This document shows, one piece after another, positions 17,051-41,851 of a DNA stretch of 64,000 nucleotides. Both the position numbers and the translations under genes were made by a program. The notes under the pieces were generated by a model. The model was not told the DNA's origin, ran no database searches, and saw only the letters and a list, made by a program, of their open reading frames with translations. Source of the DNA: Ruminococcus sp. (GTDB lineage: Bacteria; Bacillota; Clostridia; Oscillospirales; Ruminococcaceae); contig JAFXSC010000001.1 of the NCBI GenBank assembly GCA_017525915.1, positions 1-64,000 of the forward strand. Reading direction: 5' to 3'. The number at the start of each line of letters is the position of its first letter. Position 1 is the first letter of the stretch.

Positions 17051-17052
17051 AC

Positions 17053-17093
17053 ATAAAAAACACTAATGCTATTGTTGCATTAGTGTTTTTTAT
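17053..17093. terminator. Bidirectional terminator after the GHKL gene
   Basis: 17-bp perfect stem ATAAAAAACACTAATGC / GCATTAGTGTTTTTTAT with a 7-base loop; A-run before and T-run after. The interval to 17391 shows no further gene. Confidence 0.9.
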
Positions 17094-20244: not shown

Positions 20245-20264
20245 TTACAGGGAGTGCATAACAG

Positions 20265-23432: not shown

Positions 23433-23434
23433 AC

Positions 23435-24238
23435 GTGTCTTTATTAAGTAATATTGAAAAAAAAATAATCTATCGTCTATTCGATATTCAGTCAGGATAT
23501 GTTTTTTTCCATTTATCAGACAAACGTCAATACAACAAAAATGATACAAGGGATATTATCCTTGATGCGTGTAATATCAATATATACTCAGATCCAGAAT
23601 ATAGTTCACTTTCGCAACAAAAATGCATAGAAAAAATATTCGAGACTGATGATTCACATCTAATTGCAGCTCTTTTAAAAGGATTATGCGATTTTTTCTG
23701 TTTTAAATTCGGCAATATGTACTGGGACAATGAGGATCAAGCAGATTACAATGCGGTTCAGCAAATCATTAAAAGATTAGCTCAAACAGAACATATTGAT
23801 TTGCCTGAGGTTAAACAGTATGATAACATAGAAATGCTAACTCAGGATATAGAGCGGAATATTCAAAATGGTACTCCGCAACTAGCTCTTGATAGACTCC
23901 ATACTTTTTCAAGTATTTATCTACGTGAGAAATGCAAAAAGCACAATTTAGCAACATCAGATGAAAAAGGCAATAATTATTCTATTGATGGATTGGCTGG
24001 AAAACTTAAAAAGTATTATCTTGATAATTCTTACTGCAAGTCTCAATTTAGCGCTCAAGCTGTTAAAACTATGATTAGTTTATTTGCAAATTATAATGAT
24101 ATCCGCAATGATCACAGCTTCGCACATGAAAATGATATCCTTGCTAAAGATGAAGCTGAATTTGCTGTTAAAACCATGTTAGCAACCCTTCAGTTTATAG
24201 ATAAACTTGAATCAACGATAGATACACTTCCGTTTTGA
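23435..24238 (+). CDS. Abi_C-like HEPN-type protein
   Basis: A 267-residue protein with a GTG start and GAGGAGG ahead. The carboxyl part (about 145-265) matches the abortive-infection C-terminal pattern: helix RLHTFSSIYLREKCKKHN, then LAGKLKKYY and RNDHSFAHENDIL. The RNDxSxAH stretch has the R-x4-6-H look of HEPN ribonucleases. It lies between Mod and Res in the same operon, so it may be a nuclease that acts when restriction fails. The amino half is unassigned. Confidence 0.75.
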   Translation: MSLLSNIEKKIIYRLFDIQSGYVFFHLSDKRQYNKNDTRDIILDACNINIYSDPEYSSLSQQKCIEKIFETDDSHLIAALLKGLCDFFCFKFGNMYWDNEDQADYNAVQQIIKRLAQTEHIDLPEVKQYDNIEMLTQDIERNIQNGTPQLALDRLHTFSSIYLREKCKKHNLATSDEKGNNYSIDGLAGKLKKYYLDNSYCKSQFSAQAVKTMISLFANYNDIRNDHSFAHENDILAKDEAEFAVKTMLATLQFIDKLESTIDTLPF

Positions 24239-24253
24239 TAAGTAGGTGAAAAA

Positions 24254-27200
24254 ATGGCAAAGAAAAAACAAGAAATAGTTAGGTTTAATGACAGGTTACT
24301 GCTATTCAGATTCTTTCTAAATAGATTTGGCAAGGATACTTTGAAAGGCCTTGCCAAAGACTTAAACGATATAGAATACGAAGGATATGATGAAAATCAG
24401 AATACATGGTTCTATGTATATCTGAAACGTTACTGTAAAGATACAGGAATAAGTGCAGATTTTCTTAGAATGTATGACGAGAACATTTGCCGTCATTTGC
24501 AGCATATAAACGAAAAAAGAGAAGACAAGGTAATATTGAAGTATTTCCAGTACATTTCACTACTTTTTACTGAAATGTACCTCGATAATTATTTCTTCAA
24601 TACCGATCAATTTATAAACGATCTCAACGAATATATTGACAAAATAGATGCTGAATCACTTGGTATGAACCATTTTAGTCACTATTCAAGGGATAATATG
24701 AATAAACTTGCTTATATGTGTGCCACAGGAAGCGGTAAGACTCTTATTATGCATATAAATATACTGCAATACCTTCATTACATGAAACGTGCCAAAAGGC
24801 GTAACAGTAGTATAGATATCAATAAGATTATAGTTCTTGCTCCGAATGAAGGACTTTCTAATCAACATTTAGAGGAATTAACTCTTTCCTCCATATCTGC
24901 AAAACTATTTTCAAAAGACATAATAGGTATGGCAGCAGAAAAAAACGATGTTCTTATAATTGATATCAATAAACTGAAAGAAGAAAATGGTGTTAAAACA
25001 GTTTCTATAGACAGCTTTGAACAGAACAATCTCGTTCTCGTAGATGAGGGACATAGAGGACTTACTGGTGATGTATGGTATGATTATCGTACCCGTCTTT
25101 CTGCAGATGGTTTTTCTTTTGAATATTCAGCTACTTTTCGGCAGGCTCTGCAATCACAAAAATCAAGTGATAAAAAAGCTAAAGAAGAATTGATAGATGA
25201 ATATGGTAAGGCTATAATCATGGACTACTCCTATAAGTATTTCTATGAAGACGGATATGGAAAGGATTATAGAATATATAACCTTAAGGATAACTTCCAT
25301 TCGGATCAACAGTTGCTGTACTTAACAGGTTGCCTTATGTCTTTCTACCAACAAATCAAGCTCTACACTGTATATAAAAAAGAATATACCCCTTTCAGAA
25401 TAGAGAAACCCTTACTTGTATTTGTCGGAAACAGGGTTACAGCTAAAATATCTGATGCAGAATTAACAGATGTTGAAGAGATATTAGCATTTATCGACAC
25501 TTTCGTTATGAATAAGAATAATTCATCAATTAATCATATTGAAATGCTAATTACAGGTAACACTGGTCTTAATGATGCTGCAGGAAATGAGCTATTTTAT
25601 AATGATTTTACGGCGTTAGAAAATGCAATTGGAATTCAAACAGCAGAGGAAATATACTACGATGTAATTAGAACTGTATTTAACGTTGAAACGACACCTG
25701 ATATTCCAAGGCTACATATAGTTGATATGAAGCAAGTAGACGGTGAAATAGGGCTCAAAATTGGTGAAATGAATCCTTATTTCGGTGTTATATCTGTTGG
25801 TGATACATCCACACTGATAAAAAAATGCAATTCTGATCACTTAATAACAGACACTGAGGAATTCGCATCAGAATCAATGTTTAGAACTATAAACAACAAG
25901 GATTCAAATATTAATATCTTAATAGGTTCAAGAAAATTCTCAGAAGGTTGGAATAGCTGGCGTGTATCTACTATGGGACTTATTAACTTTGCTAAAGGCG
26001 AAGGATCTCAAGCCATACAGCTCTTTGGAAGAGGTGTTAGACTTAGAGGCTATGATGGCTGTCTTAAAAGAAGCCATGAAGCCACTATCAGTATACAGAT
26101 ACCAAAACATTTGTGGGTACTGGAAACATTAACTATTTTTGGCGTTAAGGCTCAGTATATGGAAGACTTCAAAAAATATCTTGAAATGGAAGATGTACCT
26201 GCTAATGAAACCACTTATGAATTTATTCTTCCCATAAAAAGCAGATACGACATGGTAAAGGGTAGAGGACTGCAAGTAATTCAATTGCCAGAACGCATCA
26301 GAAATAATTATAAGCGATTATCAAAAAGAATTATTCTTTCAGTTCCCGATGATGATTTCATAGGTTATTTAAGCAAAAACAGAATTGTCGTAGATTGTTG
26401 TTCAAAAGTTCAAACTATAGAATCTGGTGTTAGTTTACATATTGAGTCAACAACAAAAGAAAGAGTAATCGACAATAATTATCTTAGTTTTTTAAACTAT
26501 CAGCGAATTTATGAAGAATTACAACAATATAAGAATGAAAAAAAGTATTACAACATTATAATAAATAAATATGAGTTTAAGAAAATCTTGTCTGTTACAG
26601 GATGGTACGGACTAATAATACCCGAAAAGTACATGATTCTCGATTCAATAGAAGCTATTGAGAATATTACTGATTATGCAATAATGATACTCAAAGTGTA
26701 TCTTGATAAATTTTATACTTTCAATAAGGCTAAATGGGAAGCTCCTTTTCTCGAATACCATGAGCTAAGTTCAAATAATAACAATATTGACTTAGAGTAT
26801 AAAATCAAGTATACAAGCAATTACTCTGATGACTCTAATGCTGAACAAATACGCTTGTTTATTGATGATATAGTTACAATGATAGAAAAAAAAGGTTATA
26901 TTGAAGGCTATGAAATGTCAATGAACAAAGATATAATATTAGCATTTGACTTTAGGAAACACTTGTATACTCCTTTAATAAAAGTTCTGCCAGGTCCATT
27001 AAAGATTCAAGTTAGTCCTGTTCCACTTAATGATGGAGAAAAGCTATTTGTTGATAAACTTCATGACTACTTTGAAGAAAATGCAGCATATTTTCAAGAA
27101 AAAGAAATATATCTCCTGCGTAATAAAAGCAAGGTTGGAATGGGATTCTTTGAGGCAGGAAATTTCTATCCGGATTTTGTCTTATGGATTAAAGAGGAAA

Positions 27201-27508
27201 ATATTCAGAGAATCAGTTTTATTGATCCTAAAGGCCTATTAAGGGTAAGTCCTCATGATCCGAAACTCAGTTTTTACATAAAAATAAAAGAATTGCAACA
27301 ACGGCTTGCAAATACAGCTAAAGAAGGCACTGTGATTTTGAATTCATTTATTATGTCATCAACACATTCACTACAATTAGGAGAATTCCTTAATATGAAT
27401 AAACTTGAACGTGAGCAGAAACATATTCTTTCACTTGATAATGATGATTGTATTAAAAGAATGATAGAAATGATTGAAGATGATTCGTCACAAATTGTTT
27501 CTGAGTAA
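24254..27508 (+). CDS. Res-type helicase-endonuclease
   Basis: A 1084-residue protein with superfamily II helicase motifs: motif I YMCATGSGKTLIM, motif II VLVDEGHRG, motif V/VI SRKFSEGWNSWRVST and QLFGRGVRLRG. Near the carboxyl end, NFYPDFVLWI followed by RISFIDPKG fits a PD-(D/E)XK nuclease (Asp...Asp-x-Lys). This is the architecture of type III Res subunits, which move along DNA and cut when unmodified. It completes the operon of SNF2 helicase, Mod, Abi_C-like protein and Res. The second, SNF2-type motor makes the set unlike plain type III restriction. Confidence 0.88.
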   Translation: MAKKKQEIVRFNDRLLLFRFFLNRFGKDTLKGLAKDLNDIEYEGYDENQNTWFYVYLKRYCKDTGISADFLRMYDENICRHLQHINEKREDKVILKYFQYISLLFTEMYLDNYFFNTDQFINDLNEYIDKIDAESLGMNHFSHYSRDNMNKLAYMCATGSGKTLIMHINILQYLHYMKRAKRRNSSIDINKIIVLAPNEGLSNQHLEELTLSSISAKLFSKDIIGMAAEKNDVLIIDINKLKEENGVKTVSIDSFEQNNLVLVDEGHRGLTGDVWYDYRTRLSADGFSFEYSATFRQALQSQKSSDKKAKEELIDEYGKAIIMDYSYKYFYEDGYGKDYRIYNLKDNFHSDQQLLYLTGCLMSFYQQIKLYTVYKKEYTPFRIEKPLLVFVGNRVTAKISDAELTDVEEILAFIDTFVMNKNNSSINHIEMLITGNTGLNDAAGNELFYNDFTALENAIGIQTAEEIYYDVIRTVFNVETTPDIPRLHIVDMKQVDGEIGLKIGEMNPYFGVISVGDTSTLIKKCNSDHLITDTEEFASESMFRTINNKDSNINILIGSRKFSEGWNSWRVSTMGLINFAKGEGSQAIQLFGRGVRLRGYDGCLKRSHEATISIQIPKHLWVLETLTIFGVKAQYMEDFKKYLEMEDVPANETTYEFILPIKSRYDMVKGRGLQVIQLPERIRNNYKRLSKRIILSVPDDDFIGYLSKNRIVVDCCSKVQTIESGVSLHIESTTKERVIDNNYLSFLNYQRIYEELQQYKNEKKYYNIIINKYEFKKILSVTGWYGLIIPEKYMILDSIEAIENITDYAIMILKVYLDKFYTFNKAKWEAPFLEYHELSSNNNNIDLEYKIKYTSNYSDDSNAEQIRLFIDDIVTMIEKKGYIEGYEMSMNKDIILAFDFRKHLYTPLIKVLPGPLKIQVSPVPLNDGEKLFVDKLHDYFEENAAYFQEKEIYLLRNKSKVGMGFFEAGNFYPDFVLWIKEENIQRISFIDPKGLLRVSPHDPKLSFYIKIKELQQRLANTAKEGTVILNSFIMSSTHSLQLGEFLNMNKLEREQKHILSLDNDDCIKRMIEMIEDDSSQIVSE

Positions 27509-27557: not shown

Positions 27558-28700
27558 TTATACCGACGGTTTCTCAAATAATGCTTCATCAAGCTTGTCA
27601 GCAGCTTCCTTTTCAACTTTTTTCAATACATGACTGTAAATGTCCATCGTAACCTGATAGCTTGAATGTCCTAATCGTTCCTGAGCCACTTTAGGTGAAA
27701 TACCTAAAGATAGCATAATTGTGGCATTGATGTGGCGCAGATCATGGAACCGCAGATGTTTTAAACCCTGAGCTTCAAGGAAACGGCGGAACTTTTGTGT
27801 AAATGAATCACTTTTGTATGGAGAACCATCTTTCTGACATATAATATAGTCATTATCATTAGCTTTTCTTTCTGTCTTGGTATCCCTTAGCAGAGTAAGA
27901 AGCGTAGCAGGTATCTGTATAGACCTCTTACCACTTTGAGTCTTTGGAGCTTTCGTGATTCTCTCGTTATTCACAGTAACAAGGTTCTCTTCAACAGAGA
28001 GATAGCCATTTTCAAAGTCAATATGTTTCCATTTCAGAGCAAGCAATTCACCACGGCGCAGTCCTATACATATCTCTATCATAAGCGGCAGATACATACT
28101 TGTACCTTTAGCACAGTCAAGCATATGCTCAACTTCTTCTATACTGTATACATCAGGATGAAATCTTTCCAGCTTCGGCATAGTAACGTTATCGCATGGA
28201 TTCTTAGGTATAAGCTCTAACATTACCGCCTTCTTCATAGCTGCCGACAGGTTAAGGAATATATTCTTTATAGTTTTAGGTGCCATTGGTTTACCAGTGA
28301 GTGGAGACTTCTTCTGTAAAGAGAATATCCACTTCTGAACATCAATGTTCTTAACCTGCTGCAAATACATATCACCAAATACCGGAATAATATAGTTCTC
28401 AGTCTGGACAACATAATGCTGAACAGTAGTAGGAGAAAGCTGATCTTTAATATACAGTTCAATCCATTGATGAATAAAATCCTTAACAGTGATCTTGCTA
28501 TCCTTAGTAAATGTGCGGTTTTCAAGCTCATTAATGAAGTTACGCATAGCTTTCTCAGCTTCCTTCTTACTTCCTTTAACCGTCCTGTAAAACCTCTTAC
28601 GTTTTCCTGTAGAGAACCCCGCTTCTTCCTCAGCAACTATCTGATAGGTAGTAATACCTGACTTTGATTCTCTTTTTCTTAAATGTGCTGTAAATGGCAT
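27558..28700 (-). CDS. Tyrosine recombinase/integrase 3
   Basis: A 380-residue tyrosine recombinase. The amino end differs from integrases 1 and 2 (MPFTAHLRKRESKSGITTYQ). The catalytic domain has Arg in EICIGLRRGELLALKW, FHDLRHINATIML (His-x-x-Arg), LGHSSYQVTM and Tyr in DIYSHVLKK. Start 28700 has AAGGAGG ahead. It is the only integrase inside the 36-kb island, so it may have driven island insertion in tRNA-fMet; but it sits in the middle beside the restriction operon, so it may instead belong to a nested element. Confidence 0.92.
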   Translation of the reverse strand: MPFTAHLRKRESKSGITTYQIVAEEEAGFSTGKRKRFYRTVKGSKKEAEKAMRNFINELENRTFTKDSKITVKDFIHQWIELYIKDQLSPTTVQHYVVQTENYIIPVFGDMYLQQVKNIDVQKWIFSLQKKSPLTGKPMAPKTIKNIFLNLSAAMKKAVMLELIPKNPCDNVTMPKLERFHPDVYSIEEVEHMLDCAKGTSMYLPLMIEICIGLRRGELLALKWKHIDFENGYLSVEENLVTVNNERITKAPKTQSGKRSIQIPATLLTLLRDTKTERKANDNDYIICQKDGSPYKSDSFTQKFRRFLEAQGLKHLRFHDLRHINATIMLSLGISPKVAQERLGHSSYQVTMDIYSHVLKKVEKEAADKLDEALFEKPSV

Positions 28701-28758
28701 AATATAGCCTCCTTTTTGCAATTTTATAACATAATGTTCGGCGTGCCATTATAAAAAA

Positions 28759-29616: not shown

Positions 29617-30579
29617 TTAACGCTGATACAGCGTTTTGATCTCTTCCATAGCCTGTTCAAACAGGTCATGATCCATTAACATTTCTTCGACTTCATCACT
29701 GCTGTAACCGAACTCAAAGAGTAATTCAACATCCTCTCTATCGACCCCATAACACCCGCAGATCATGAGAAGATCATTCTCATACTCCTCGTCAGTTTTT
29801 TCTAAACCGTACCACTCATACCAGTCCGTAAGTCGGTAATTATTGAAGCTGTAATGACGCTCGACTTCTTCAAACGTAATTACAGAAATTCTTCCGTCAC
29901 TATCAATACGAACTATATCACCTGTGTTGATTTTTACATTTTCACATTCTGCTGAGAATCTCGCTGACTTCATAGCATTTTTGAGAATATCCGCAGTAGA
30001 CGCATAGATATAGAGTCCATACTCAGGAAAATGCAGAAGTGTTATAGGATTACTTCCCCTAACGAGAAAGAGGGTATTATCGTCCCTCAGAACAGTAAAA
30101 ACAAAGCTACCATACACAGTCTCAGCCATAGTCCTTATACTGTTTCCGTCCACGATATTCTGCTGCTCAATCAGCTGAACTGCAACATAGCTATCGGTCT
30201 CGACCTCAGTATTAGGAAGTTGCTTTTCACTCTTTAACTCCCTGTCGTTGTAAATTATACCATTGTGTGCAAGAGCGAAATTGTGGCTATCTGTTGAGCC
30301 TACAAATGGGTGATTGTTGTAGTTGAACTTTTCATTTCCCTGCGTTGTAAGGCGGTTGTGACCTATCAGCGCAGTAGTTTCTTTCGGAAAATACAAGTGA
30401 ACTTTATGTGCAGGTTTAGCCTTTTTGAATGTAATAATTTTACCATTGTTGATGTAACTAATACCTGTTGCATCAGTACCACGAATCTCAGCAGCTATTG
30501 AAATTTCACGCAACAATTTCGTCAGGACTTTGTGCGGAATTTTCTTACCATAATTAAGGAATCCGTATATAGCACACAT
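29617..30579 (-). CDS. Stand-alone class II glutamine amidotransferase, cassette 2
   Basis: A 320-residue protein, paralog of 1946-2926. Catalytic Cys2 is in MCAIYGFLNYG; other signatures are EIRGTDATGISY, GHNRLTTQG, NNHPFVG and ALAHNGIIYND. One difference is GHNR in place of GHTR. It would free ammonia for the amidoligase upstream. The carboxyl acidic tail (YGVDREDVELLFEFGYSSDE) is the most conserved part between the copies outside the glutaminase core. Start 30579 is 2 bases after the DUF4314 stop. Confidence 0.88.
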   Translation of the reverse strand: MCAIYGFLNYGKKIPHKVLTKLLREISIAAEIRGTDATGISYINNGKIITFKKAKPAHKVHLYFPKETTALIGHNRLTTQGNEKFNYNNHPFVGSTDSHNFALAHNGIIYNDRELKSEKQLPNTEVETDSYVAVQLIEQQNIVDGNSIRTMAETVYGSFVFTVLRDDNTLFLVRGSNPITLLHFPEYGLYIYASTADILKNAMKSARFSAECENVKINTGDIVRIDSDGRISVITFEEVERHYSFNNYRLTDWYEWYGLEKTDEEYENDLLMICGCYGVDREDVELLFEFGYSSDEVEEMLMDHDLFEQAMEEIKTLYQR

Positions 30580-30580
30580 A

Positions 30581-30805
30581 TCACTCAGCCTCCTTTCCGA
30601 TAACTTCAAATGAATCAGCATCAGGACAAATGCCGAGACTTCTTCCGTTGTCCCATTTCATGTGCAGAGTTCCCACATCGTCAACGTAAGCAACTGTTCC
30701 GGTCATACCATTTTCGATTGGAGAATAAGGATCGTCCATGTGAATAAGTCGAATTCTTGTACCGGCAGGGTAAGCCTTCTTGTAGTATTCAGCCTTGTTC
30801 ATCAT
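30581..30805 (-). CDS. DUF4314-like small protein
   Basis: A 74-residue beta-rich protein fitting DUF4314: YPAGTRIRLIHMDDPYSP, GMTGTVAYVDDVGTLHMKWD, then LGICPDADSFEVI, an SH3-like barrel pattern. The start overlaps the amidoligase stop (ATGATG). No biochemical role known to me; it is encoded with amidoligase cassettes here and may be a binding subunit. Confidence 0.78.
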   Translation of the reverse strand: MMNKAEYYKKAYPAGTRIRLIHMDDPYSPIENGMTGTVAYVDDVGTLHMKWDNGRSLGICPDADSFEVIGKEAE

Positions 30806-31893
30806 ACATCCTCCTCAACATTGACTTCATCATTGATATATAGGCGGCGCTCTTTAAGGTACTGTATCAACTCTGGATACTGAATATTGCTGACTAATTC
30901 CGACCATGAGAGTGATTCAAGCTCACTTTGGGACATAGAAAGAGCCACATCACAGATCGTATCAACGAACTGCAATGTGGCTATGAATGTGTTATATTTT
31001 AGTGTGCCTCTGAACAGGCGAAATTCGATCGTGCTGTAGTTGCAAAGATTTACTGCACTGTATCTGCCGTGATCGCTGCACTTGGCTTTCTTCAAAATTT
31101 CCTTGCCTGTTTTTTCGTAACCGTAACGAGCGCTCCAACGGTTCATGTTGTAGGTGCTGCGGCGAGAAAAACGAAACACCTCATTCCAATGCTTTTCTAT
31201 CAGGAACAGTATCTTTCCGATGACTTCTTCCTGCTCAGACTGATTATCTCCAAAAGCGTTCCTGTTAACATGGATATGCAGACCGCAGGTAGATGTCTGG
31301 TGTGAACGATAACCCATTTTGATAGCTTCATGCAGAACAGACTCCCAATCCATATCGTTCATATGATAGTTAAGATTCATCGGGTGGCTAACGATTTCAA
31401 AGCCGTCATCTATACTGCCGTCAGACTTGATGTAGATGTGTGCATGACGAGCATTGCCGACCTCTTTAAGAGTGCTTGCATTATCATCATCTTTACCGCC
31501 GCAGTCTACTTCAAGCTCAACACCGAGATAACGCTTGCCGTCACCGTAGAAAACAGGCTCAGGCTTATATGAATATTCCTCGATCTCGTCATTAAAATCA
31601 TCGTAGCAGCTATCACAGTAGGGATAATCGCCTCGCCAATTGACATTGTTGTCGTGAATGATACGATTACAACACTCACAGCGATGATAGTAGTCATTGT
31701 AGCAGGTCTCACAAAGGGTAATGTTATCGTCCTGTACCGAATCGTTGATCCAAATAGTCTCACCGCAGTGGTCACAGGTGGTACAATGCTCGTCAACACA
31801 GTCCTGACATAGAAACTGATCGTCTACCCATGTACCGTCCTCCTCTTTGATCTCTCGTCCGCAAATGTCACAGACTCTTGTGTTTTCTTCCAT
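30802..31893 (-). CDS. Zinc-ribbon amidoligase, cassette 2
   Basis: A 363-residue paralog of 672-1784. Zinc ribbons (CDICGREI, CQDC, CDHCGE, CETC, CECC, CDSC) occupy about residues 6-95. The amidoligase domain has LGVELEVD, IKSDGSIDDGFEIVSHPM, CGLHIHVNRNAFGD and TIEFRLFRGTLKY. Start 31893 has GGAGG ahead. The two copies are similar throughout yet clearly diverged, so the duplication is not recent; they probably arrived with separate elements. Confidence 0.86.
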   Translation of the reverse strand: MEENTRVCDICGREIKEEDGTWVDDQFLCQDCVDEHCTTCDHCGETIWINDSVQDDNITLCETCYNDYYHRCECCNRIIHDNNVNWRGDYPYCDSCYDDFNDEIEEYSYKPEPVFYGDGKRYLGVELEVDCGGKDDDNASTLKEVGNARHAHIYIKSDGSIDDGFEIVSHPMNLNYHMNDMDWESVLHEAIKMGYRSHQTSTCGLHIHVNRNAFGDNQSEQEEVIGKILFLIEKHWNEVFRFSRRSTYNMNRWSARYGYEKTGKEILKKAKCSDHGRYSAVNLCNYSTIEFRLFRGTLKYNTFIATLQFVDTICDVALSMSQSELESLSWSELVSNIQYPELIQYLKERRLYINDEVNVEEDV

Positions 31894-31916
31894 TTCAATT
31901 ACCTCCAAAAACAAAA

Positions 31917-31953
31917 AATTCCGATAAGGCTGGAAATAGACCTTATCGGAATT
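31917..31953 (-). terminator. Terminator before cassette 2
   Basis: 13-bp stem AATTCCGATAAGG / CCTTATCGGAATT followed on the minus strand by TTTTTTGTTTTT. It ends the PPDK/Sel1 transcript and separates it from the amidoligase operon. Confidence 0.88.
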
Positions 31954-32055
31954 ATAATACATATTTGATTTTTGGAGTAGATACAGACGGTGCAGAAAAC
32001 TGCTACTGCCTCTATCTGATTTTCTGAGAAGCCAAAGAAAAAACAAAGAGAATAA

Positions 32056-32337
32056 TCAGAATTTTTCCTTGAGGAATTCTATTGCTTCTTCACATCCTTG
32101 ATCTGCGGCTTGTTTAAAGTAACTCTTTGATTTTTTTCTGTTAGCTTCTACACCATAGCCATAGTAGAAGCAAAAACCTAAATTATACTGTGCTGGTGAG
32201 TATCCTTGATCTGCTGCTTTATGAAACCAAAAAGCTGCATTTCCTAAATGTTCTTCAACAACTTCTCCTTTCAAATACAAGAGTCCTAAATCATTTTGTG
32301 CTTCAGGGTATCCCTTTTCAGCATCTGATTTTGCCGA
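32056..32337 (-). pseudogene. Sel1-repeat tail in frame behind a TAG
   Basis: About 93 codons of Sel1-like repeat (AEKGYPEAQNDLGLLYLKG, HKAADQGYSPAQYNLGFCF, QAADQGCEEAIEFL) continue in the same frame as the PPDK-type gene, directly after its TAG stop. No good ribosome site or ATG is seen near its first codons (only TTG). So either the protein was once one chain and a nonsense change cut it, or TAG is read through in part. Sel1 repeats bind partner proteins. Confidence 0.65.
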
Positions 32338-34491
32338 CTAAAATATCCTTTTATTAGCTTCACTTTTAGTTATTAATCCTTCTTCATACAGTTGTTTTGA
32401 TATTTCTTGAGCAGCTTCAGATGTTCTATCTCCACGGCAAACATTCAACAAATATAGCAGACCGTTTTCGATTGTAAATTCCATATAAATCATATCTATA
32501 TAGTGCTTTTCAAACATATCTGCACATTGTTCTAACATAGGATAAAATGTTGGATTTTCCTTCTTAACCACATCGAGAGAAATTATTTTGCATTCTTCTG
32601 CAGAAGCATCATTTCCTTGTGCATTATAAGCGATTTGACCATCCAATGCTTTTTCACCAGTAATAGGACTTCGAGAGAAAAGAAGTCCTGTTCCGCTTTT
32701 ATCATTCAAATTACCGAAAACCATTTCCTGAACAATAACAGCTACTCCCCATGAAAATGGAATATCATTATCTCTTCTGAAAGCATTAGCTTCCGGATTA
32801 TCCCATGAACAATATGCAGCTTCAATTATTTCAAAAAGTTGTTCTTTAGGAGATTGTGGAAATTCACTATTTGAATAATCTTTATATATTTTTTTATACT
32901 GCTTTACAAGTTCATTTAAAGCTTCAACATTTAGATTTGACTCTTCTTTTACATTGTATCGCTTCATTAATTTATTCAAGGCATTTGTAAAATAGCTCTT
33001 ATCTATTCCTTTGACATTAACTCCATATGAGGTGATCAATCGTCTGTAACAATCCAACGCCCAGCGAGCCTTTTCCGGATTTTTTGAAAAACTCTCTACA
33101 ATTTCATCGTTAAAACCAACATTCAGAACTGCCTCCATTAAACTGGGAATCGAACCTCTGCAGCTTGTTCTGACTGAAAGGAAAAGAGGATTTGTCTTGT
33201 CTCCAAATTTCTTTCCCCTGTTTATTTCAAATTGTTTTAGTATTTCACTAATATCAGTTCGTATTTCTTTAGTAAAATGTCCTTCGTCATAATAATCTAT
33301 GCAGGCTTCTGTGTTTATAATGAATCCAAAAGGTAAAGGAATACCCATGTCGCATATTCTCACACAAGCTCTGCCTTTTGTTCCTATTGCTCCAACATCT
33401 TCACTATCAATGTCTGTGAACATATGAGCATAACGAGGCGTATAATTATCGTCTATATCATCATTAACTGTATCTGTGTTTTCACAGTAAGAAGAATTTG
33501 CATCAGTTAGTTCAGGTTCGCTTTCATTCATCCCTATCTGTAACGTACTAATTTCAACAATGCTGTTCTGCTTATTCTCGATGAAGCTTTCGGAAATATC
33601 TATGTAAGAAAACTCTGCGCTGTCGTCAAGTTCAAATTTTTCAAGAACTCTGTTTATGATAGTTTCTTTCTTTTTTGACATTTTCTCCATTTTAGGGAGG
33701 AAATGGTATGCTTCTATCATCTCCGCAAAAAGGTTAGCAGGGAAGTTCTCACGGAAATTGCAAAGTTCAAGATAGACTGTGCCGACTTTATCTTCTGGAA
33801 GGGAAAGTATCTCGTCAAGATAAGCGCTGACGGAAATACTGTCCTCGGAAATTATTCCTCGTTTTGTAAGCTCTCCTCGCAATATATCAAGCTTTCGTTC
33901 ATCTTCCAAAGTACGCTTATCAAGCTGTGAAAGAACGCAGCAAAGACCATACAGCTTGCTTTCATCGCTGTAACGTCCGAGCCTTATTTCTTCTATAAGC
34001 ATATGGAAGTTGTCAACGCTTTCTATTTTTTCATTAAGAGCTGTTACAAATTTGCCGAGCGACTGTAATGTTTCTTGCTGTATCTGCTGAATTTCAGCTA
34101 TCTGAGCCTTCATTACAAGCTGTTCGTTATAAGCCTCGTTCACCTGTGCGTATATCTGATTCATACGGTTTCCAAGACTGCAAATTACCTGCTGATCGAT
34201 ACAGTTCATCTGATAGCACTGCGCTACTGCCTGAGAAACATATGATACTACTTTATCTTGGTTTTTCTGAATCTCTGCTTTTGTAGCCTTGTTCTTACCG
34301 GAAACAGTTAATACCATACGCTTGAACCAGCCCTGCTTTTCCATAGCTTCAACACGGCTGTTGGTATCGTTCTGCAAATTAGTTATACCTTGAACAAGCG
34401 TTGTCATTTGTCCCATTATAGTTGTAAGCTGTGCAGGTGACTGCTGCACTAAAAATCTTATATCATCTCCGCTGATGACTGATGTTGGCAT
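32338..34491 (-). CDS. Coiled-coil protein with PPDK-type ATP-grasp domain
   Basis: A 717-residue protein. Residues about 1-180 are helical and coiled-coil, loosely like TelA; about 180-340 are helical. From about residue 355 on it matches the nucleotide-binding domain of pyruvate phosphate dikinase: GTKGRACVRICDMGIPLPFGF, LFLSVRTSCRGSIPSLMEAV, IPFSWGVAVIVQEMVFGN, SGTGLLFSRSPITGEK, and ENGLLYLLNVCRGDRT. The phosphohistidine swivel and PEP-barrel domains are absent, so ordinary PEP/pyruvate chemistry is not expected; phosphate may go to another target. GGGG site before ATG; stops with TAG, behind which Sel1 repeats continue in frame. Confidence 0.82.
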   Translation of the reverse strand: MPTSVISGDDIRFLVQQSPAQLTTIMGQMTTLVQGITNLQNDTNSRVEAMEKQGWFKRMVLTVSGKNKATKAEIQKNQDKVVSYVSQAVAQCYQMNCIDQQVICSLGNRMNQIYAQVNEAYNEQLVMKAQIAEIQQIQQETLQSLGKFVTALNEKIESVDNFHMLIEEIRLGRYSDESKLYGLCCVLSQLDKRTLEDERKLDILRGELTKRGIISEDSISVSAYLDEILSLPEDKVGTVYLELCNFRENFPANLFAEMIEAYHFLPKMEKMSKKKETIINRVLEKFELDDSAEFSYIDISESFIENKQNSIVEISTLQIGMNESEPELTDANSSYCENTDTVNDDIDDNYTPRYAHMFTDIDSEDVGAIGTKGRACVRICDMGIPLPFGFIINTEACIDYYDEGHFTKEIRTDISEILKQFEINRGKKFGDKTNPLFLSVRTSCRGSIPSLMEAVLNVGFNDEIVESFSKNPEKARWALDCYRRLITSYGVNVKGIDKSYFTNALNKLMKRYNVKEESNLNVEALNELVKQYKKIYKDYSNSEFPQSPKEQLFEIIEAAYCSWDNPEANAFRRDNDIPFSWGVAVIVQEMVFGNLNDKSGTGLLFSRSPITGEKALDGQIAYNAQGNDASAEECKIISLDVVKKENPTFYPMLEQCADMFEKHYIDMIYMEFTIENGLLYLLNVCRGDRTSEAAQEISKQLYEEGLITKSEANKRIF

Positions 34492-34505
34492 TATTATATC
34501 CCCTT

Positions 34506-35621
34506 TCAGATCTTGCCTAACAGTTTGTCAAGGTCGTTTACAAGCTGTTTGTTTTCAGTATTTTTCTGTTCGATATATGCGTTAGCTCTCATATGAGTAT
34601 TTGCAAGTTCATTATGTTCAAGAGCAAGCTGTTCGTGGACTTGAAGCTGCGTTGTATACTCTTCAACAAAAGAACCGAACTGATCGGCAGACGTTTGAAG
34701 AGCGCTTACAAGATCGTCATTCATTTGCATCAGATCCTGATAGTATTTAGCTTCTCCAAGTATTTCTCTGTATTCTCCACGACCAAAAGCAGGTGCAACT
34801 ATCTTGTTTATTGCCGCACCTAAAACGATAGAGACAGGTATAGTCACCGGAGCACCAGCAAGACCGGCGGTACTTAAAACAGCCGTAACCGGTATCATCA
34901 GACCTGCTGTAACTCCACCTGTTATTGCTCCGTCACCACCTGCCTTAGCTATCTCTTTTATGTAGTCTTTACCGCTTATTCTGCCTTCTTTGTAATCCTT
35001 ATAGCGAGCAATCGTTTCAACAGTAACAGTTATAGCTGCGCCTATTACTGCTCCTTTCGCCATTTCAACAGCTGCTCCCTTTGCAAGCTGTGCCGCCTGA
35101 TACTTTTTGAAAGTTCCGTCCTGCATATGGTTCTGCATTTCCACAGCTTTCGCTTTGCTTATAGGATCGCTTGAAACTCCGTCAGGTGCGGTAATTTTAT
35201 TTACAGAGCCGTCTATAAACTGCTCCTGACCATCTGGAACAAGAAGTTTTTGTCCTCTGTAATTTCCGTGATTTTTATAGCTGAGAGTAGCTTCCGGAGT
35301 ATTGCCGTATTTCGCTTGGTATCGACCTGCCGCCCAGCCTTCGCCGTTTTTATATATGCCTAAGTCCATTGAGTTTTTGGCGTAACCGTGTTCCGGTATA
35401 AGAGCTTTTGCTCTGTAAGCACTTCCGGCAGCCTTAGCATTGAAATTAAATGTAAGCTCATGCCAGTTCTCAGCAATGAAGCCGTTAAGATTCGGATTTT
35501 GGCTTACTTCTCCGGCTTTAGTCAAAGCTCTTTTAAATATTTCATTTCCGACTTGCTGTTCTTTTACAAGATTAAGCGTTCCGCTAAAGAACTCTTTAAC
35601 GTCATTGTTAGTTATAGGCAT
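34506..35621 (-). CDS. Glycine-zipper membrane-active protein
   Basis: A 371-residue protein with no known enzyme motif. The amino third includes QEQFIDGSVNKITAPDG. Residues about 170-290 hold two long Gly/Ala-rich hydrophobic stretches (KGAVIGAAITVTVETIA and GGVTAGLMIPVTAVLSTAGL, then VTIPVSIVLGAAINKIVAP), the pattern of glycine-zipper or pore-forming proteins. The end (about 300-370) is coiled-coil. It could be the effector of the PPDK/Sel1 module; this is inference. It ends 15 bases before the PPDK gene and has a promoter with operators at 35657-35722. Confidence 0.72.
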   Translation of the reverse strand: MPITNNDVKEFFSGTLNLVKEQQVGNEIFKRALTKAGEVSQNPNLNGFIAENWHELTFNFNAKAAGSAYRAKALIPEHGYAKNSMDLGIYKNGEGWAAGRYQAKYGNTPEATLSYKNHGNYRGQKLLVPDGQEQFIDGSVNKITAPDGVSSDPISKAKAVEMQNHMQDGTFKKYQAAQLAKGAAVEMAKGAVIGAAITVTVETIARYKDYKEGRISGKDYIKEIAKAGGDGAITGGVTAGLMIPVTAVLSTAGLAGAPVTIPVSIVLGAAINKIVAPAFGRGEYREILGEAKYYQDLMQMNDDLVSALQTSADQFGSFVEEYTTQLQVHEQLALEHNELANTHMRANAYIEQKNTENKQLVNDLDKLLGKI

Positions 35622-35656
35622 TTCAATTCCCCCTTGCAGAAAAAGTTATGTCATAT

Positions 35657-35722
35657 GCTAAATAGTGTTTACCATATTATAACATACTGATTCATAAGTT
35701 GTCAATCACTATTTACCAATCA
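35657..35722 (-). promoter_or_regulatory. Promoter flanked by two operator-like sites
   Basis: Minus-strand promoter TTGACA (35700-35705), 18 bases, TATAAT (35676-35681). Sites TGGTAAACACTATTTAGC (35657-35674) and TGGTAAATAGTGAT (35705-35718) stand on either side. The same sites flank the promoter at 36215-36286, suggesting one repressor for both. Confidence 0.75.
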
Positions 35723-35735
35723 CAGAGTTATTTAA

Positions 35736-36200
35736 CTATACTTTTTCGTTAAGAATAGCTATACTTGTTTCAAGCCAGCGAGAATAAGTGTTTAAAGTAT
35801 TATCTAAAAGAGCGGTGCCGTTAAATAGACCTATTACTTTTTGGACAGGATTGCCGCTATGCTTGATTCTCTTATCAAAATCGGGGTAAATATCCTGTCT
35901 TACAAGAAGGTGATTACCTGCACCCATATATACTGCCTTCCAATTGTCGGTTGACTTAGGCTTCTCAAAATCGAAGTCCTTGATAGGCGGAAAAGCTTTG
36001 ATAACGTTTTCATAATCAAGACTTCCGTCTATATAGCTGCCTCTTCTTACTATGATTTCTCTATTTTCAAGGCTAACTATGGTTATAGAGCCGTTATCGC
36101 CCATTGCACCTGTTTCTGAAACAGCCACGAAATAGATGTCCTTATAGCTTATTGAAGCTGCATTTTTATCTGTTAACTGTTCTTTTTTTACGTTAAGCAT
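35736..36200 (-). CDS. Unrecognised 154-residue module protein
   Basis: A mainly beta-strand soluble protein (YKDIYFVAVSETGAMGDNG, ITIVSLENREIIVRRGSYID) with no recognised family. AGGAGG before the ATG; first gene after the XRE-controlled promoter. It may be the sensor or immunity part of the module; not shown. It stops 14 bases before the next operator region. Confidence 0.7.
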   Translation of the reverse strand: MLNVKKEQLTDKNAASISYKDIYFVAVSETGAMGDNGSITIVSLENREIIVRRGSYIDGSLDYENVIKAFPPIKDFDFEKPKSTDNWKAVYMGAGNHLLVRQDIYPDFDKRIKHSGNPVQKVIGLFNGTALLDNTLNTYSRWLETSIAILNEKV

Positions 36201-36214
36201 AATTATCCTCCTTC

Positions 36215-36286
36215 TGGTAAATAGTGAACACCAATTCTATTCTAAATATAGCATATAATGGTATAAAAGTCAAACTGTATTTACCA
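36215..36286. promoter_or_regulatory. Divergent promoter region with paired operators
   Basis: Dyad TGGTAAATAGTGAACACCA at 36215-36233 and ACTGTATTTACCA at 36274-36286. Between them, the minus-strand promoter TTGACT (36268-36273), 17 bases, TATATT (36245-36250) serves the 154-residue gene, and TATAAT at 36254-36259 may serve the XRE gene. The layout matches that at 35657-35722. Confidence 0.75.
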
Positions 36287-36305
36287 ATTTGAAAGGTCGT
36301 ATGCT

Positions 36306-36578
36306 ATGTTTAAACTTAAAGCGGAAAACGGCTTTAACAACATTACCGGAAAAAGGCTGACTCAGCTTCGCCATGAGAAAAATATATCCCAAAGACAGCT
36401 TGCTAAAATGATGCAGGTCGCAGGCTATGATGTAGATCATCACTTCATCCGCAGAATTGAAAACGGTGAAAGATTTGTTACTGATATAGAGCTTGTTGCA
36501 TTGGCAAAGGTGCTGAATATCAGCATTATTGAACTCATAGACGATTCAATACCGATATCAGCACCTGATTGCGATTAA
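36306..36578 (+). CDS. XRE-family regulator
   Basis: A 90-residue helix-turn-helix protein: LTQLRHEKNISQRQLAKMMQ and VDHHFIRRIENGERFVTDIE, the lambda-repressor fold. It is divergent from the PPDK module and likely binds the TGGTAAATAGTG-type sites at both promoters, repressing them. GAAAGG ahead of the ATG. The last codons overlap the convergent zinc-ribbon gene. Confidence 0.9.
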   Translation: MFKLKAENGFNNITGKRLTQLRHEKNISQRQLAKMMQVAGYDVDHHFIRRIENGERFVTDIELVALAKVLNISIIELIDDSIPISAPDCD

Positions 36579-36727
36579 TATTTATTCTTACTGTGATTAT
36601 ACTTTAATATCTCTTTATAGCATGAAGAACAGTAACCAAGATGTCGCTCCCATTTCAGCTTCTTGAATTGAACGATCCTGCCGCAGCTTTCACATTTACA
36701 TTTACCGCTTTTGTCTTTCCATATCAT
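36575..36727 (-). CDS. 50-residue zinc-ribbon protein
   Basis: MIWKDKSGKCKCESCGRIVQ, later GYCSSCYKEILKYN: two Cys-x2-Cys knuckles forming a zinc ribbon, rich in Lys. The start overlaps the stop of the upstream gene (TAATG), and its stop overlaps the XRE stop from the other side. A likely nucleic-acid or protein adaptor of the small operon 38458 to 36575. Confidence 0.72.
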   Translation of the reverse strand: MIWKDKSGKCKCESCGRIVQFKKLKWERHLGYCSSCYKEILKYNHSKNKY

Positions 36728-37599
36728 TAAAAACAATCTTCCCACGGCTGTTCACTTTCAAGGTATTTCCTATATGAAGCTGCAAACCTTTTGAACTGTT
36801 CCTTTTCATATTCGTTACAATAGTAGAATGGCTCTAAGCTGCTAACATATATCTTTCCTGATATACTGGATTTATATAAGGATACTATCAATGGAGTTTT
36901 ATTCATCCTTTTAAGCACTTTTTTCGGTTCATTTATGAAAGTTGAGTAGTCTGTATCAAAAGTATCAAAGAATTTCTGCAATTCATGTTCGCCTTCGGAA
37001 AAGATTCTGTTTATATAGTAATAAAAGGTTCTGACTTTTCCGCCATTAAAAACCTTGACCATTATTCTCAGTGTTTTATCTGTAGGTTCATTTCTGTCTT
37101 TGAAGCTCTCTATATTCATAACAAATCCCAAGTATTCGTTATCTGAGTAATTATCTTCTCCAATATACGGAAATGGGAAATACTTCTTGATGATCATTGG
37201 AACATTATCAACAGTCTCAGATACATTAACATTTTTGAGTTTTCTGTATAGTTCTTTTTCTGAAACGCCATCGCCAATACCGGAATAAAGCTCCAATCTG
37301 TTTTCATCTATCAAAAGAACACAAAATCTTCCAAGTGCTTCATCAAGATCAAGTTCATACTCATAATCACCGTATTCATTTTCTAATATTACAAACAAAT
37401 CGAACGCATTGCAGAAATTCTGAAAATCTTTTCTGCCTTTCTCAAAAATATTTTTGAATTTCACATTGTAATCTTTAACTTCTCCATCCATATCAACGTA
37501 TGTTCTTACGATTACAGTATTTTCATCTTCAATATCAATTTTGTATATAGCTCCCGAATATTCACCTTCGGAAACAATAACTGCATTTTTAGGTTCCAT
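36727..37599 (-). CDS. Unrecognised protein with an internal duplication
   Basis: A 290-residue protein. Two similar halves: YNVKFKNIFEKGRKDFQNF (about 55-75) and YYYINRIFSEGEHELQKFF (about 200-220), each preceded by beta strands (TVIVRTYVDMDG; LRIMVKVFNGGK). No catalytic motif seen. Start 37599 (MEPKN) has GAGGAGG ahead; an earlier start at 37614 is less likely. Coupled to the zinc-ribbon gene. Confidence 0.68.
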   Translation of the reverse strand: MEPKNAVIVSEGEYSGAIYKIDIEDENTVIVRTYVDMDGEVKDYNVKFKNIFEKGRKDFQNFCNAFDLFVILENEYGDYEYELDLDEALGRFCVLLIDENRLELYSGIGDGVSEKELYRKLKNVNVSETVDNVPMIIKKYFPFPYIGEDNYSDNEYLGFVMNIESFKDRNEPTDKTLRIMVKVFNGGKVRTFYYYINRIFSEGEHELQKFFDTFDTDYSTFINEPKKVLKRMNKTPLIVSLYKSSISGKIYVSSLEPFYYCNEYEKEQFKRFAASYRKYLESEQPWEDCF

Positions 37600-37699
37600 A
37601 TTATTCCTCCTCATATGAACATATCACTTTTCTCACTGCTGAAAAGTTTTTCTGTATTCTCAGCAGTGAGATCATGAATCATTAAGCGTATATAATCAT

Positions 37700-38458
37700 T
37701 TAAATAAAGTCCATGTCATCTAATTCAAACTCTTCGTCATCGTATTCTTCTTCATCTTGTTTTTCATGTATTATATCATAGTCCAAGTAATCATGTGCGT
37801 ATTCAGGAAAATATTTCTCAAGTAAAGGTTTAGCTATGATTTCCCTATCAGTGTAGCTATTTGACATCTGACAAATAAAGTAAATATGAAATAATTCGCT
37901 TAACTCCTTAGGTATATCGTAATTAAGTTCTATTTCATAATCGCCGAAAGCCTCTTCAAATACAGTATTATTCTTTTCAATATCATTATACTCATCCTCC
38001 ATAGCCCATTGGCTTGTTTCAAAATCGATTTCAAGCAAATCTTGTTCACTGGAATCATAATCTATTGATTTTAAAACAACCCATGTATATAGTCCAATCA
38101 TGTCATTCAAATCATACGTATTTGCGTATTCAGGGAAATAATAATAATCACGTGGATCATCATAATCAATAAGCATTTGTGTAAGAAAGTAAAACACCTC
38201 CATTCCTGCTAAGCATTTTTCATTTTCATAACCATACATAGAGTAACAATTTCTACAATAAAAAATATCTTTACATAAGAGTTCAACCTCCCTATATTCA
38301 TTTCCATTGTAAACAACGAATGTTATGATCAAGTTTACGATTGTTTGGTCTGAACTATTTTTTACTTCTTCGGTCCTCATACTTTTTACCATTGCAGGAT
38401 ATGGACAACCATACCTAAAGTCATTTGTTTTGTAATCATAAATGTTCTGCCAACTCAT
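37700..38458 (-). CDS. Unrecognised acidic 252-residue protein
   Basis: Starts MSWQNIYDYKTNDFRYGC. Has a beta stretch (IVNLIITFVVYNGNEYREVEL, then CKDIFYC) resembling one unit of the duplicated protein encoded next, and a very acidic end (EEYDDEEFELDDMDF), as in DNA mimics. This might make it an anti-defence or inhibitor type protein; speculative. First gene of the operon, divergent from 38597. Confidence 0.65.
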   Translation of the reverse strand: MSWQNIYDYKTNDFRYGCPYPAMVKSMRTEEVKNSSDQTIVNLIITFVVYNGNEYREVELLCKDIFYCRNCYSMYGYENEKCLAGMEVFYFLTQMLIDYDDPRDYYYFPEYANTYDLNDMIGLYTWVVLKSIDYDSSEQDLLEIDFETSQWAMEDEYNDIEKNNTVFEEAFGDYEIELNYDIPKELSELFHIYFICQMSNSYTDREIIAKPLLEKYFPEYAHDYLDYDIIHEKQDEEEYDDEEFELDDMDFI

Positions 38459-39874: not shown

Positions 39875-41311
39875 TCATTTCAGGAAGACATTTTTATAAT
39901 AATCTCCGCTGTTAATGTGTATAGGTCTTGCTCCATTATTTTCATCTTCAAGAATGTTTTTGAAAAGCCTATGGAATATTGTACTGGACATATTACCATT
40001 GAAATGGTTCTGCCTGCAGTATTTTAAAAATGCGTTGTATACAACTGTGGTCTTTGTTTTAACCTTTGAAGTCTCATCATATACTTCAACACAGCTGTTG
40101 TAAAATGCCTTTACAACATTATGCTCATTTTTATAGTGTTCAAGTTCATCTGCACAAGCCTTTGAATATGTGAAGTTGAAATCATTCTCAAAGAGTCTCA
40201 TCAGACCATCATATGCAAAATTGAATATTCCGGGAAGTTCCTTTTCAAGTTCTGCTTCAAGGTATACATCTTTATAAAGTATACCTTCTTCATCTTCTTT
40301 CTCCGGATCACGGTCACGGAAGCACTGATTAAACGGTATTATAAGAAGTCTTCTGTAGAAACCATCGCTGTAATCCTTGGTTTGTATCATGTCATTAGCA
40401 AGAAGGATAAATTTACTGTGTATCTCAGTAGTATATGACTTTGCATATTTTTCCTCTATTTCAGTAGAGTCTCCGCCAGTAAGACTTTTCAAGTCTGCTG
40501 TACTGTATAGTTTCTCTGTTTTTGTCTCAGAAGAAATATTCAAAAGCTTTCTGTCGAGGTTCTGTTTTGAGAATCGTCCGCCACTCAGACTATCAAGAGC
40601 GATAGCAGAAACATTTTTTTCTCCGATCATTTTTTTGATGATATTTGAAAGAAGTGATTTGCCATTTGAACCTTTTCCAAGGAAAATAACAAGCTTTTGC
40701 ATTATATCCTCATAATAGAGACAAGCTCCCATTATTTCCTGTATAAGGTCTATCCTTGATCTATCTTCCTCAAATATTTCATTCAGAAATCTTTTGAATT
40801 TAGGAGCTTCTGCATTTTCATCAAAGTCATATGGCAGCTGTACAAGGCTGAATATTTCAGAATCAGGCTCATAGAATGTATTTTCATCTACATCCAGTAT
40901 TCCGTTGGTAAAATGAAGAAGTCCGGGTTTCATTCCGTTATTCTCGGAATAATCAAGCTTTCTGTAAAAATACGGAAGATAATCGCTTTCATAGCTTTTC
41001 TTCCATATTGTTGGAGATGCTTCCTCTATGATATAGAAGAATATTTTTGTGTACTGAGCCTCTTCAAGCTGAACATAACGTTTTTCAGAGAAATTATAAA
41101 AGTATATCCTCTCGTTACAGTTGACTGCACATAGCCTCGTCATTGCATATCTTATGAATACTGCGTGATTGAATTTGAGCCTATTATTATCGTTTACGAA
41201 GCCTCGCTGTGTAAGCATCTTTTCTTCGTAAGCACCAGTATCAAGCTCCTTTTTCCATTTACGGTTACTTATGTCCTTTTTAATAAAGTCGGTTTCTTTA
41301 AAACGTTCCAT
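39875..41311 (-). CDS. P4-type replication helicase 2
   Basis: A 478-residue D5/P4-type superfamily III helicase. Walker A is VIFLGKGSNGKSLLSNI (about residues 210-226); later ISSETKTEK, SKFILLANDM and FYRRLLIIPF are the B, sensor and Arg-finger regions. The amino part has a D5_N-like helical domain (LLHFTNGILDVDENTFYEPD). AGGAGG before ATG. It differs from the helicase at 7411-8769, suggesting a separate element. No relaxase in this half of the window. Confidence 0.87.
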   Translation of the reverse strand: MERFKETDFIKKDISNRKWKKELDTGAYEEKMLTQRGFVNDNNRLKFNHAVFIRYAMTRLCAVNCNERIYFYNFSEKRYVQLEEAQYTKIFFYIIEEASPTIWKKSYESDYLPYFYRKLDYSENNGMKPGLLHFTNGILDVDENTFYEPDSEIFSLVQLPYDFDENAEAPKFKRFLNEIFEEDRSRIDLIQEIMGACLYYEDIMQKLVIFLGKGSNGKSLLSNIIKKMIGEKNVSAIALDSLSGGRFSKQNLDRKLLNISSETKTEKLYSTADLKSLTGGDSTEIEEKYAKSYTTEIHSKFILLANDMIQTKDYSDGFYRRLLIIPFNQCFRDRDPEKEDEEGILYKDVYLEAELEKELPGIFNFAYDGLMRLFENDFNFTYSKACADELEHYKNEHNVVKAFYNSCVEVYDETSKVKTKTTVVYNAFLKYCRQNHFNGNMSSTIFHRLFKNILEDENNGARPIHINSGDYYKNVFLK

Positions 41312-41452: not shown

Positions 41453-41851
41453 ATGAATGTATTTTCAAAAGCTGAGGATATTATAGAAATTATTAAAGCC
41501 GAGAAACTGACTTTATTGCAGTTTTTAGACAAATACTGTACAGTATTTAAAGATATTCCAAGAGGTTCGCTAATAGCTCCGGAATACAGATACAGAGATT
41601 CTTACAGCGAAAAAGCATTTGTATTTCTTATAGGCAGTTATGTCTATTATTCATTATATCAGAAACCTGTAACATGGCTTGAACGATACAGATTTGCTGA
41701 GTTCAGCGATTATAGTGTTTTTTTCAAGAAGACTATATGTACCGATACTTCAAGACGTATTGGAAGATTAGATGAACTTCAAAAAATAATCACGGAGATT
41801 AGTGTTGAAAAAAACACATCACTTTTATCACTAAAAGGAGAAATGGAATGA
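41453..41851 (+). CDS. Small partner gene of the kinase-NB-ARC protein
   Basis: A 132-residue helical protein (MNVFSKAEDIIEIIKAEKLT, later RDSYSEKAFVFLIGSYVYYS) of no known family. Start 41453 has GGAGGTG ahead. It overlaps the kinase gene by four bases (ATGA), so the products are made together. Its last codons include the inverted repeat arm at 41808-41832. It could be a toxin, an inhibitor or a sensor. Confidence 0.68.
   Translation: MNVFSKAEDIIEIIKAEKLTLLQFLDKYCTVFKDIPRGSLIAPEYRYRDSYSEKAFVFLIGSYVYYSLYQKPVTWLERYRFAEFSDYSVFFKKTICTDTSRRIGRLDELQKIITEISVEKNTSLLSLKGEME
41808..41832 (-). repeat. Second arm of the inverted repeat pair
   Basis: Complement of 39809-39833 with one mismatch; it falls within the last codons of the 132-residue gene. 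Confidence 0.7.

Follow-up and report, generated by a model that had tools for sequence, protein, structure and literature searches.

Among the known systems closest to the locus reported here is PDC-M09, a defense candidate listed in PADLOC; Bunzi, which has tested activity, and Leo share parts with its relatives. PDC systems reportedly come from a guilt-by-embedding study (a preprint by Payne et al.), and PDC-M09 was not found by name in our literature search, which left preprints (bioRxiv) and most subscription papers outside its coverage. An excerpt of PMC12988326 describes PDC systems as mostly unvalidated. Our locus lies in a 64,000-nucleotide stretch of Ruminococcus sp. DNA (GenBank assembly GCA_017525915.1, contig JAFXSC010000001.1, positions 1 to 64,000, forward strand; hereafter the window) and centers on two adjacent genes: gene A, for a glycine-zipper protein of 371 amino acids (aa), and gene B, for a 717-aa protein in which a helical coil precedes a domain resembling the ATP-grasp part of pyruvate phosphate dikinase (PPDK). 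We find that these two genes form a conserved unit with exchangeable ends, and we propose, with middling confidence, that they work together as a membrane-linked conflict module of two components, probably directed against phages.

A Conserved Two-Gene Unit

In 10/10 loci, gene A immediately precedes gene B and shares its strand. These loci are the window and nine further loci (Clostridia, Synergistota) recovered by a coil-alignment pattern scan of 84,980 species genomes. Two of the ten loci come from Synergistota, and two, L052 and L058, from Ruminococcus flavefaciens (loci are cited by L number, genomes by G number). The count refers to loci found through gene B by a scan that demands exact short peptide patterns and is not a census; it leaves out L014 (G473), a gene B fragment without gene A, and L015 (G520), L007, L051, and L070, whose coil matches are weak. 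At L015 (4820–7971), a patatin-like phospholipase gene lies beside that of a dynamin-like GTPase whose N-terminal coil weakly resembles gene B. L007, which with the window's own genome makes up the 2/391 class genomes with a coil match, reads as a chemoreceptor-like coil and was rejected.

Within the genus (125 genomes, including the window's own), the gene B coil was detected in five genomes by single sequence and in six by profile; the five others comprise two full partners (G002, G449), one fragment (G473), and two weak matches (G520, G470). At E 1e-3, a search with residues 1–310 of gene B found no match among 72,556 plasmid records or among 50,697 phage records. Viral contigs yielded no confirmed relative, whether gene A and the coil of gene B were used in pattern scans and alignments or the 154-aa and PPDK parts in pattern scans, and an initial scan of genome contigs by gene A alone confirmed none.

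An earlier sequence-only reading of the window had proposed a larger unit: an XRE-type regulator, a divergent 154-aa protein, gene A, and gene B. All five reading frames that it listed are present at its coordinates (Table 1), and co-occurrence across genomes, the check that it suggested, is borne out for the gene A/gene B pair, but not for the 154-aa and XRE genes, which were not seen with the pair elsewhere. The conserved system is two genes, not four. We regard the two-gene modular family as solid, and the XRE and 154-aa genes look like a local addition to it.

Table 1. Positions of genes, domains, and putative regulatory sites of the locus in the window
Feature	Coordinates	Strand	Remarks
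Gene B	32338..34491	-	717 aa; helical coil and PPDK ATP-grasp-like domain; TAG stop
Gene B conserved N-terminal part (residues 1–345)	33457..34491	-	helical; found in nine loci and the window
PPDK_N-like domain of gene B (residues 353–716)	32344..33435	-	altered nucleotide site
Sel1 repeats	32056..32337	-	in frame with gene B, behind TAG 32338–32340; Sel1, E 4.1e-14
Gene A	34506..35621	-	371 aa; N-domain, glycine-zipper hydrophobic part, C-terminal coil
Gene A N-domain (residues 37–168)	35118..35513	-	candidate PD-(D/E)XK-like nuclease
Gene A glycine-zipper/hydrophobic part (residues 179–281)	34779..35087	-	from hydropathy and GxxxG steps
154-aa protein	35736..36200	-	no family assigned; same operator type in front as gene A
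XRE-type regulator	36306..36578	+	divergent; HTH_3, E 1.6e-8
Operator-like copy	35656..35667	+	1 mismatch
Operator-like copy	35707..35718	-	0 mismatches
Operator-like copy	36215..36226	+	0 mismatches
Operator-like copy	36275..36286	-	2 mismatches
Promoter-like site, gene A	35676..35705	-	TTGACA-18-TATAAT, 12/12, consensus match only
Promoter-like site, 154-aa gene	36245..36273	-	TTGACT-17-TATATT, 10/12, consensus match only

A Probable Sister Arrangement of PDC-M09

Window proteins were compared with Pfam, NCBIfam, PADLOC, and PHROGs and by Protein Data Bank (PDB) profile and chain searches. The likeness to PDC-M09 lies in gene A. The gene A proteins of three scanned clade II loci, L057, L060, and L058, match PADLOC PDC-M09B at E 5.5e-113, 1.4e-119, and 6.6e-123, and that of L059 aligns with these three (by alignment only). 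Window gene A itself matches PDC-M09B weakly (E 0.0098, residues 159–261), and the clade I proteins of L053 and L055 show no match at E 0.01. A clade II gene A profile from which the tested group was excluded recovered window gene A at 5.6e-8 and the M09B-type proteins of L036, L038, and L037 at 1.4e-42 to 1.8e-35, each in a small search set. Because profiles that exclude the tested group match across them, the two gene A clades are linked, and, with respect to PDC-M09, the C-terminal part of window gene A appears to be a distant relative.

The remainder of the locus differs. Downstream gene B takes the place of the M09A partner, and the window N-domain and PPDK C-end lie outside the PADLOC model. 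Neither the 154-aa nor the 717-aa protein matches PADLOC at E 0.1, and a clade I profile of the gene B coil matches none of four M09A proteins (L036, L037, L040, L043). On these profile comparisons, we place the window as a sister arrangement of PDC-M09, not as a member. The earlier statement that no named system covers this set of genes holds for the window set as a whole; the absence of a known family holds only in part, as gene A of L057, L058, and L060 matches PDC-M09B.

PDC-M09B occurs in 14/391 genomes of the class at E 0.001 and in 0/14 control genomes. M09-type loci join the same C-part to other N-ends, namely an HNH-like stretch (L041, by eye) and the BnzB domain of Bunzi; the latter fusion (L043:5428–6816, E 6.9e-117) lies beside an M09A gene. 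BnzB is absent from the window module. As for Leo (LeoBC/LeoA), 3/4 M09A proteins match LeoBC, and gene B carries a GTPase part in L058 and L060, whereas the window module has no GTPase.

Exchangeable Ends on a Common Core

Gene A N-ends and gene B C-ends are exchanged among loci. The gene A N-ends fall into three alignable types, with L052 outside all three. The window type recurs at 48.5% identity in 15 records of Klebsiella/Enterobacter-type plasmids. Its motif, E51...D86...Q102xK104, is invariant in 5/5 alignment rows, four of them independent, as two are near-identical plasmid copies; the QxK variant of the PD-(D/E)XK motif is known from Mrr-like enzymes. The other two types also show E...D...QxK (7/7 and 4/4 rows), at residues picked by us. 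We therefore put the N-domain forward as a motif-level nuclease candidate. Behind it, gene A has hydrophobic segments at residues 179–205 and 230–281, and 4/6 GxxxG steps (190, 213, 231, 236) fall in or beside them, which bears out the earlier description of a 371-aa glycine-zipper protein.

Two of the 15 plasmid contexts were viewed (L067, 4810–12660, and L068). Both have the look of conflict operons, with genes for a vWA protein, a protein in which a glycine-zipper-like part follows the N-domain (Gly-zipper_Omp matches at no better than E 0.015), an IetA-like AAA ATPase, a CARF-PD-(D/E)XK nuclease, a PP2C protein, and a kinase. They resemble the window in the homologous N-domain and glycine-zipper-like part and differ in their other partner genes and in the absence of gene B.

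The gene B coil is nearly all helix in an AlphaFold2 (AF2) model of residues 1–330, with a predicted local distance difference test score (pLDDT) of 78. Its C-end is Sel1 in L052, L053, L055, and L056 and a GTPase in L058 and L060; L057 lacks it, L054 and L059 gave no assignment, and in the window it is PPDK followed by Sel1 behind a TAG. These calls were made by Pfam for L052 and L058 (scanned under the labels L012 and L013) and read from sequence and alignment elsewhere. In a coil tree of ten rows, the window pairs with L052 (100/100) inside a six-row group (100/100) of five Sel1 rows plus L054, which is separate from the GTPase rows. The coils of the window and L052 are 65% identical, and both variable ends differ.

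An amidoligase (phrog_16683, E 1.2e-122) and a class II glutamine amidotransferase (GATase) follow gene B in the window (29617–32046), and parts of both follow it in L052. In L058 (6923–10623) and L060, the GTPase-ended gene B is followed by further GTPase-like genes (by Pfam in L058, read from sequence in L060).

The PPDK-Like End of Gene B

The PPDK end was found only in the window; 0/9 relatives carry it. The domain is recognized by Pfam (PPDK_N, E 4e-22), by the PDB PPDK chain 2dik (E 8.2e-85; also 2r82), and by NCBIfam pyru_phos_dikin (2.9e-101, under the model's curated cut-off), whose match covers profile positions 2–365/865 and ends there. Neither the phosphohistidine nor the PEP/pyruvate domain of PPDK was found in gene B, in agreement with the sequence-only reading, which had described a PPDK-type ATP-grasp domain lacking both.

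The nucleotide site has changed. Nine PPDK sequences from Clostridia, Bacilli, Alphaproteobacteria, Spirochaetes, and Bacteroidota served as references (five annotated ppdK, L071, L072, and L076–L078; three unannotated stretches, L073–L075; and the host's own gene, L005). At the 110 positions invariant among them, the window domain keeps 69 and changes 41. We take K22, D321, Q335, and R337 (C. symbiosum numbering) to be nucleotide-site residues and R92 and E323 to correspond to plant Arg95 and Glu324. Those two plant residues bind ATP, according to an excerpt of PMC5507339. Three of the six, K22, R92, and E323, are kept; D321, Q335, and R337 have become Y669, N683, and C685. With 41/110 positions and three of six nucleotide-site residues altered, working phosphotransfer by gene B is therefore unlikely, and we infer that this end is likelier a nucleotide-binding sensor than a phosphotransferase. 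The frame has stayed open for 367 codons at about 42% identity to housekeeping PPDKs. Across the genus, 106/125 genomes have a PPDK match, at 32%–45% identity apart from the window (long matches 40–44%), consistent with housekeeping PPDK.

Directly behind the TAG, the frame of gene B runs on into the Sel1 repeats, for which the sequence-only reading had given a separate open reading frame (ORF; 32056–32280). Because the same frame continues, this ORF appears to be an end of gene B that the stop cuts off. The stretch shares 74% DNA identity over 61 bp with the Sel1 part of L052 gene B. GC content at third codon positions is 0.39 in the coil, 0.22 in the PPDK part, and 0.23 in the Sel1 part, and this break between coil and PPDK/Sel1 suggests that the two arrived as one cassette. 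Reading of TAG as a sense codon was ruled out, as 7/42 mechanical ORFs of at least 150 aa in the window end in TAG.

Putative Local Regulation and the 154-aa Gene

Between 35656 and 36286 lie four copies of an operator-like repeat, TGGTAAATAGTG, with at most two mismatches each, where 200 first-order resamplings of the 720-bp region give an expectation of 0.09; the repeat was picked from that same region after inspection, and five further matches with two mismatches lie elsewhere in the window. The copies form two inverted pairs, each bracketing a promoter-like site with TG before its −10 hexamer and one base between the upstream operator copy and the −35 hexamer. Promoter matches overall (7) show no clear excess over shuffles (4.7, sd 2.0), and therefore the regulatory argument rests on the operators. 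The divergent XRE gene and the operator copies are real, and a single divergent XRE protein could silence both promoters.

Among the ten loci, this arrangement was seen only in the window: an operator with at most two mismatches lies just upstream of gene A in 0/9 relatives, whose loci hold eight matches, two inside gene A (L054, L057) and six elsewhere. Searches of Pfam, NCBIfam, PADLOC, and PHROGs with the 154-aa protein gave nothing at the limits applied, and its gene was found in 0/124 other genus genomes, 0/72,556 plasmid records, and no viral contig (pattern scan). In the relatives' loci examined, the 154-aa and XRE proteins were both without a match; the L052 contig stops too near gene A on its upstream side for an XRE gene to show there. 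Upstream of the XRE gene, 295- and 252-aa proteins (36727–38458) have no above-cut-off match in the same four libraries.

Island Context

The module region is flanked by a tyrosine integrase gene (27558–28721) and a D5/primase gene (39875–41311). The genes beyond them encode, to one side, an AbiL-like ATPase, a DrmD-like helicase, and a methyltransferase and restriction subunit of type III-like kind; a kinase-STAND-TPR protein is encoded to the other. These surroundings confirm the earlier description of a mobile island rich in likely defense genes. The first set (15134–27508: HATPase; DrmD-like SNF2 helicase, E 1.9e-206; type III-like methyltransferase, 1.3e-214; Abi_C; REase_III, 7.3e-177) looks like a DISARM/type III hybrid defense cluster. 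The kinase part of the 1078-aa protein on the other side (41848–45084; kinase, STAND-like NTPase, TPR repeats) matches PD-T4-6.

Proposed Mechanism and Alternatives

We propose that the conserved core consists of the gene A glycine zipper and coil and the helical coil of gene B. Gene B would be the sensor or adaptor, its coil holding gene A through the C-terminal coil of the latter, and its C-terminal domain (Sel1 or GTPase in relatives, altered PPDK here) would bind a protein or a nucleotide and so answer infection. The ensuing release or reassembly would let gene A insert its glycine-zipper helices into the membrane, use its candidate nuclease domain, or both, so that the infected cell is stopped or killed. 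In the window, the XRE repressor, acting on two operator-bracketed promoters, may keep gene A and the 154-aa protein low until induction, and the TAG behind the PPDK domain ends gene B ahead of the Sel1 repeats. A conflict or defense role is, in our judgment, likely by a modest measure. In favor of the proposal stand the constant gene order, the PADLOC candidacy of gene A in three scanned relatives, the exchanged ends, the hydrophobic GxxxG part, the island context, and the operators. Of the operon first proposed, an XRE-controlled and probably conflict-related locus with a membrane-type protein in a defense island is supported; the four-gene set, the enzyme role with its phosphotransfer target, and the separate Sel1 gene are not supported.

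Several observations weigh against this proposal. The module is rare: 2/398 genomes of the phylum carry the gene B coil, namely the window's own and one with a fragmentary 47-column match. At L014, gene B is cut off on a 5.3-kb contig from which gene A is absent, and the neighbors of L053 and L054 read by eye as housekeeping genes, with no defense island. As regards the candidate nuclease, hhalign found no homology between the three N-domain types, L052 gene A lacks a recognizable nuclease motif, the window N-domain has neither a credible PDB profile match nor a Pfam match, and the AF2 model of gene A (pLDDT 43) gives an unusable fold. Fold searches of PDB and BFVD with the gene B coil model found no relative at E<=0.001. 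C-end labels on the coil tree cluster no more than chance (78 and 67/500 shuffles as low, ten rows being few). Finally, gene B may be damaged, as the TAG after its PPDK domain could indicate.

The last point leads to the alternative that survives best, a decaying locus in which gene B was put out of action by the PPDK cassette and the TAG and the module has lost its function. The altered site, the stop ahead of the Sel1 repeats, and the confinement of the domain to the window all fit; the open PPDK frame and the intact coil and gene A frames argue for selection after divergence, although present function is not proven by them. We consider decay unlikely, if a serious possibility.

A polymorphic-toxin or toxin-immunity locus, with gene A as a toxin against other bacteria, the 154-aa protein as its immunity protein, and the XRE protein controlling production, would explain why the 154-aa gene and gene A stand behind the same kind of operator pair and why the gene A N-end is exchanged, as in toxins. 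Yet the conserved partner is gene B, which comes after gene A, and the 154-aa gene was found in 0/124 other genus genomes and had no match in the relatives' loci examined. No trafficking domain was recognized in gene A by Pfam or NCBIfam, with a signal-peptide predictor left out; phi29 scaffold, TraO, and MscL appeared as sub-cut-off matches only. This reading seems improbable to us.

Slightly more doubtful, we think, is an XRE-regulated toxin–antitoxin or addiction cassette of the mobile element, in which gene A would be the toxin and either the 154-aa protein or gene B the antitoxin. The XRE gene with its shared operators and the nearby integrase and primase speak for it. Against it, none of the nine relatives showed the operator immediately in front of gene A, and two of them lie among housekeeping-looking genes; gene B (330–717 aa) is unlike an antitoxin, and its residues 1–310 are unmatched in plasmid and phage records; and no conserved antitoxin gene was found beside the would-be toxin, the 154-aa gene occurring in 0/124 other genus genomes. 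That gene B is a working phosphotransfer enzyme, modifying some target upon infection, is the version in line with the sequence-only reading and is very improbable: ATP-grasp homology over 364 residues and the kept K22, R92, and E323 favor it, but D321, Q335, and R337 are replaced along with other invariant positions, the His domain is absent, and nine relatives do without the PPDK domain.

Implications

Within the proposed conflict module, the PPDK-like end as sensor is a further proposal. In its strongest form, which we hold to be tentative and unlikely, a PPDK ATP-grasp domain was excised, changed at its catalytic site, and installed as the swappable sensor of a membrane-linked, nuclease-bearing immune module, where it would read nucleotide state or act as a decoy for host or phage PPDK. 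A phage-encoded PPDK is on record in an excerpt of PMC12038007; among the literature matches listed, none links PPDK to immunity or describes its recruitment as an immune sensor. If true, this would show that an enzyme of metabolism was recruited to immune sensing.

More broadly, one logic of exchangeable parts unites scattered and mostly unvalidated annotations, namely PDC-M09B, the BnzB fusion, and the plasmid vWA/CARF operon, and it defines a partner gene, gene B, with a coil for which the libraries searched gave no named family. Should gene B be the sensor, the swaps of its C-end would bear directly on how such modules change what they detect.

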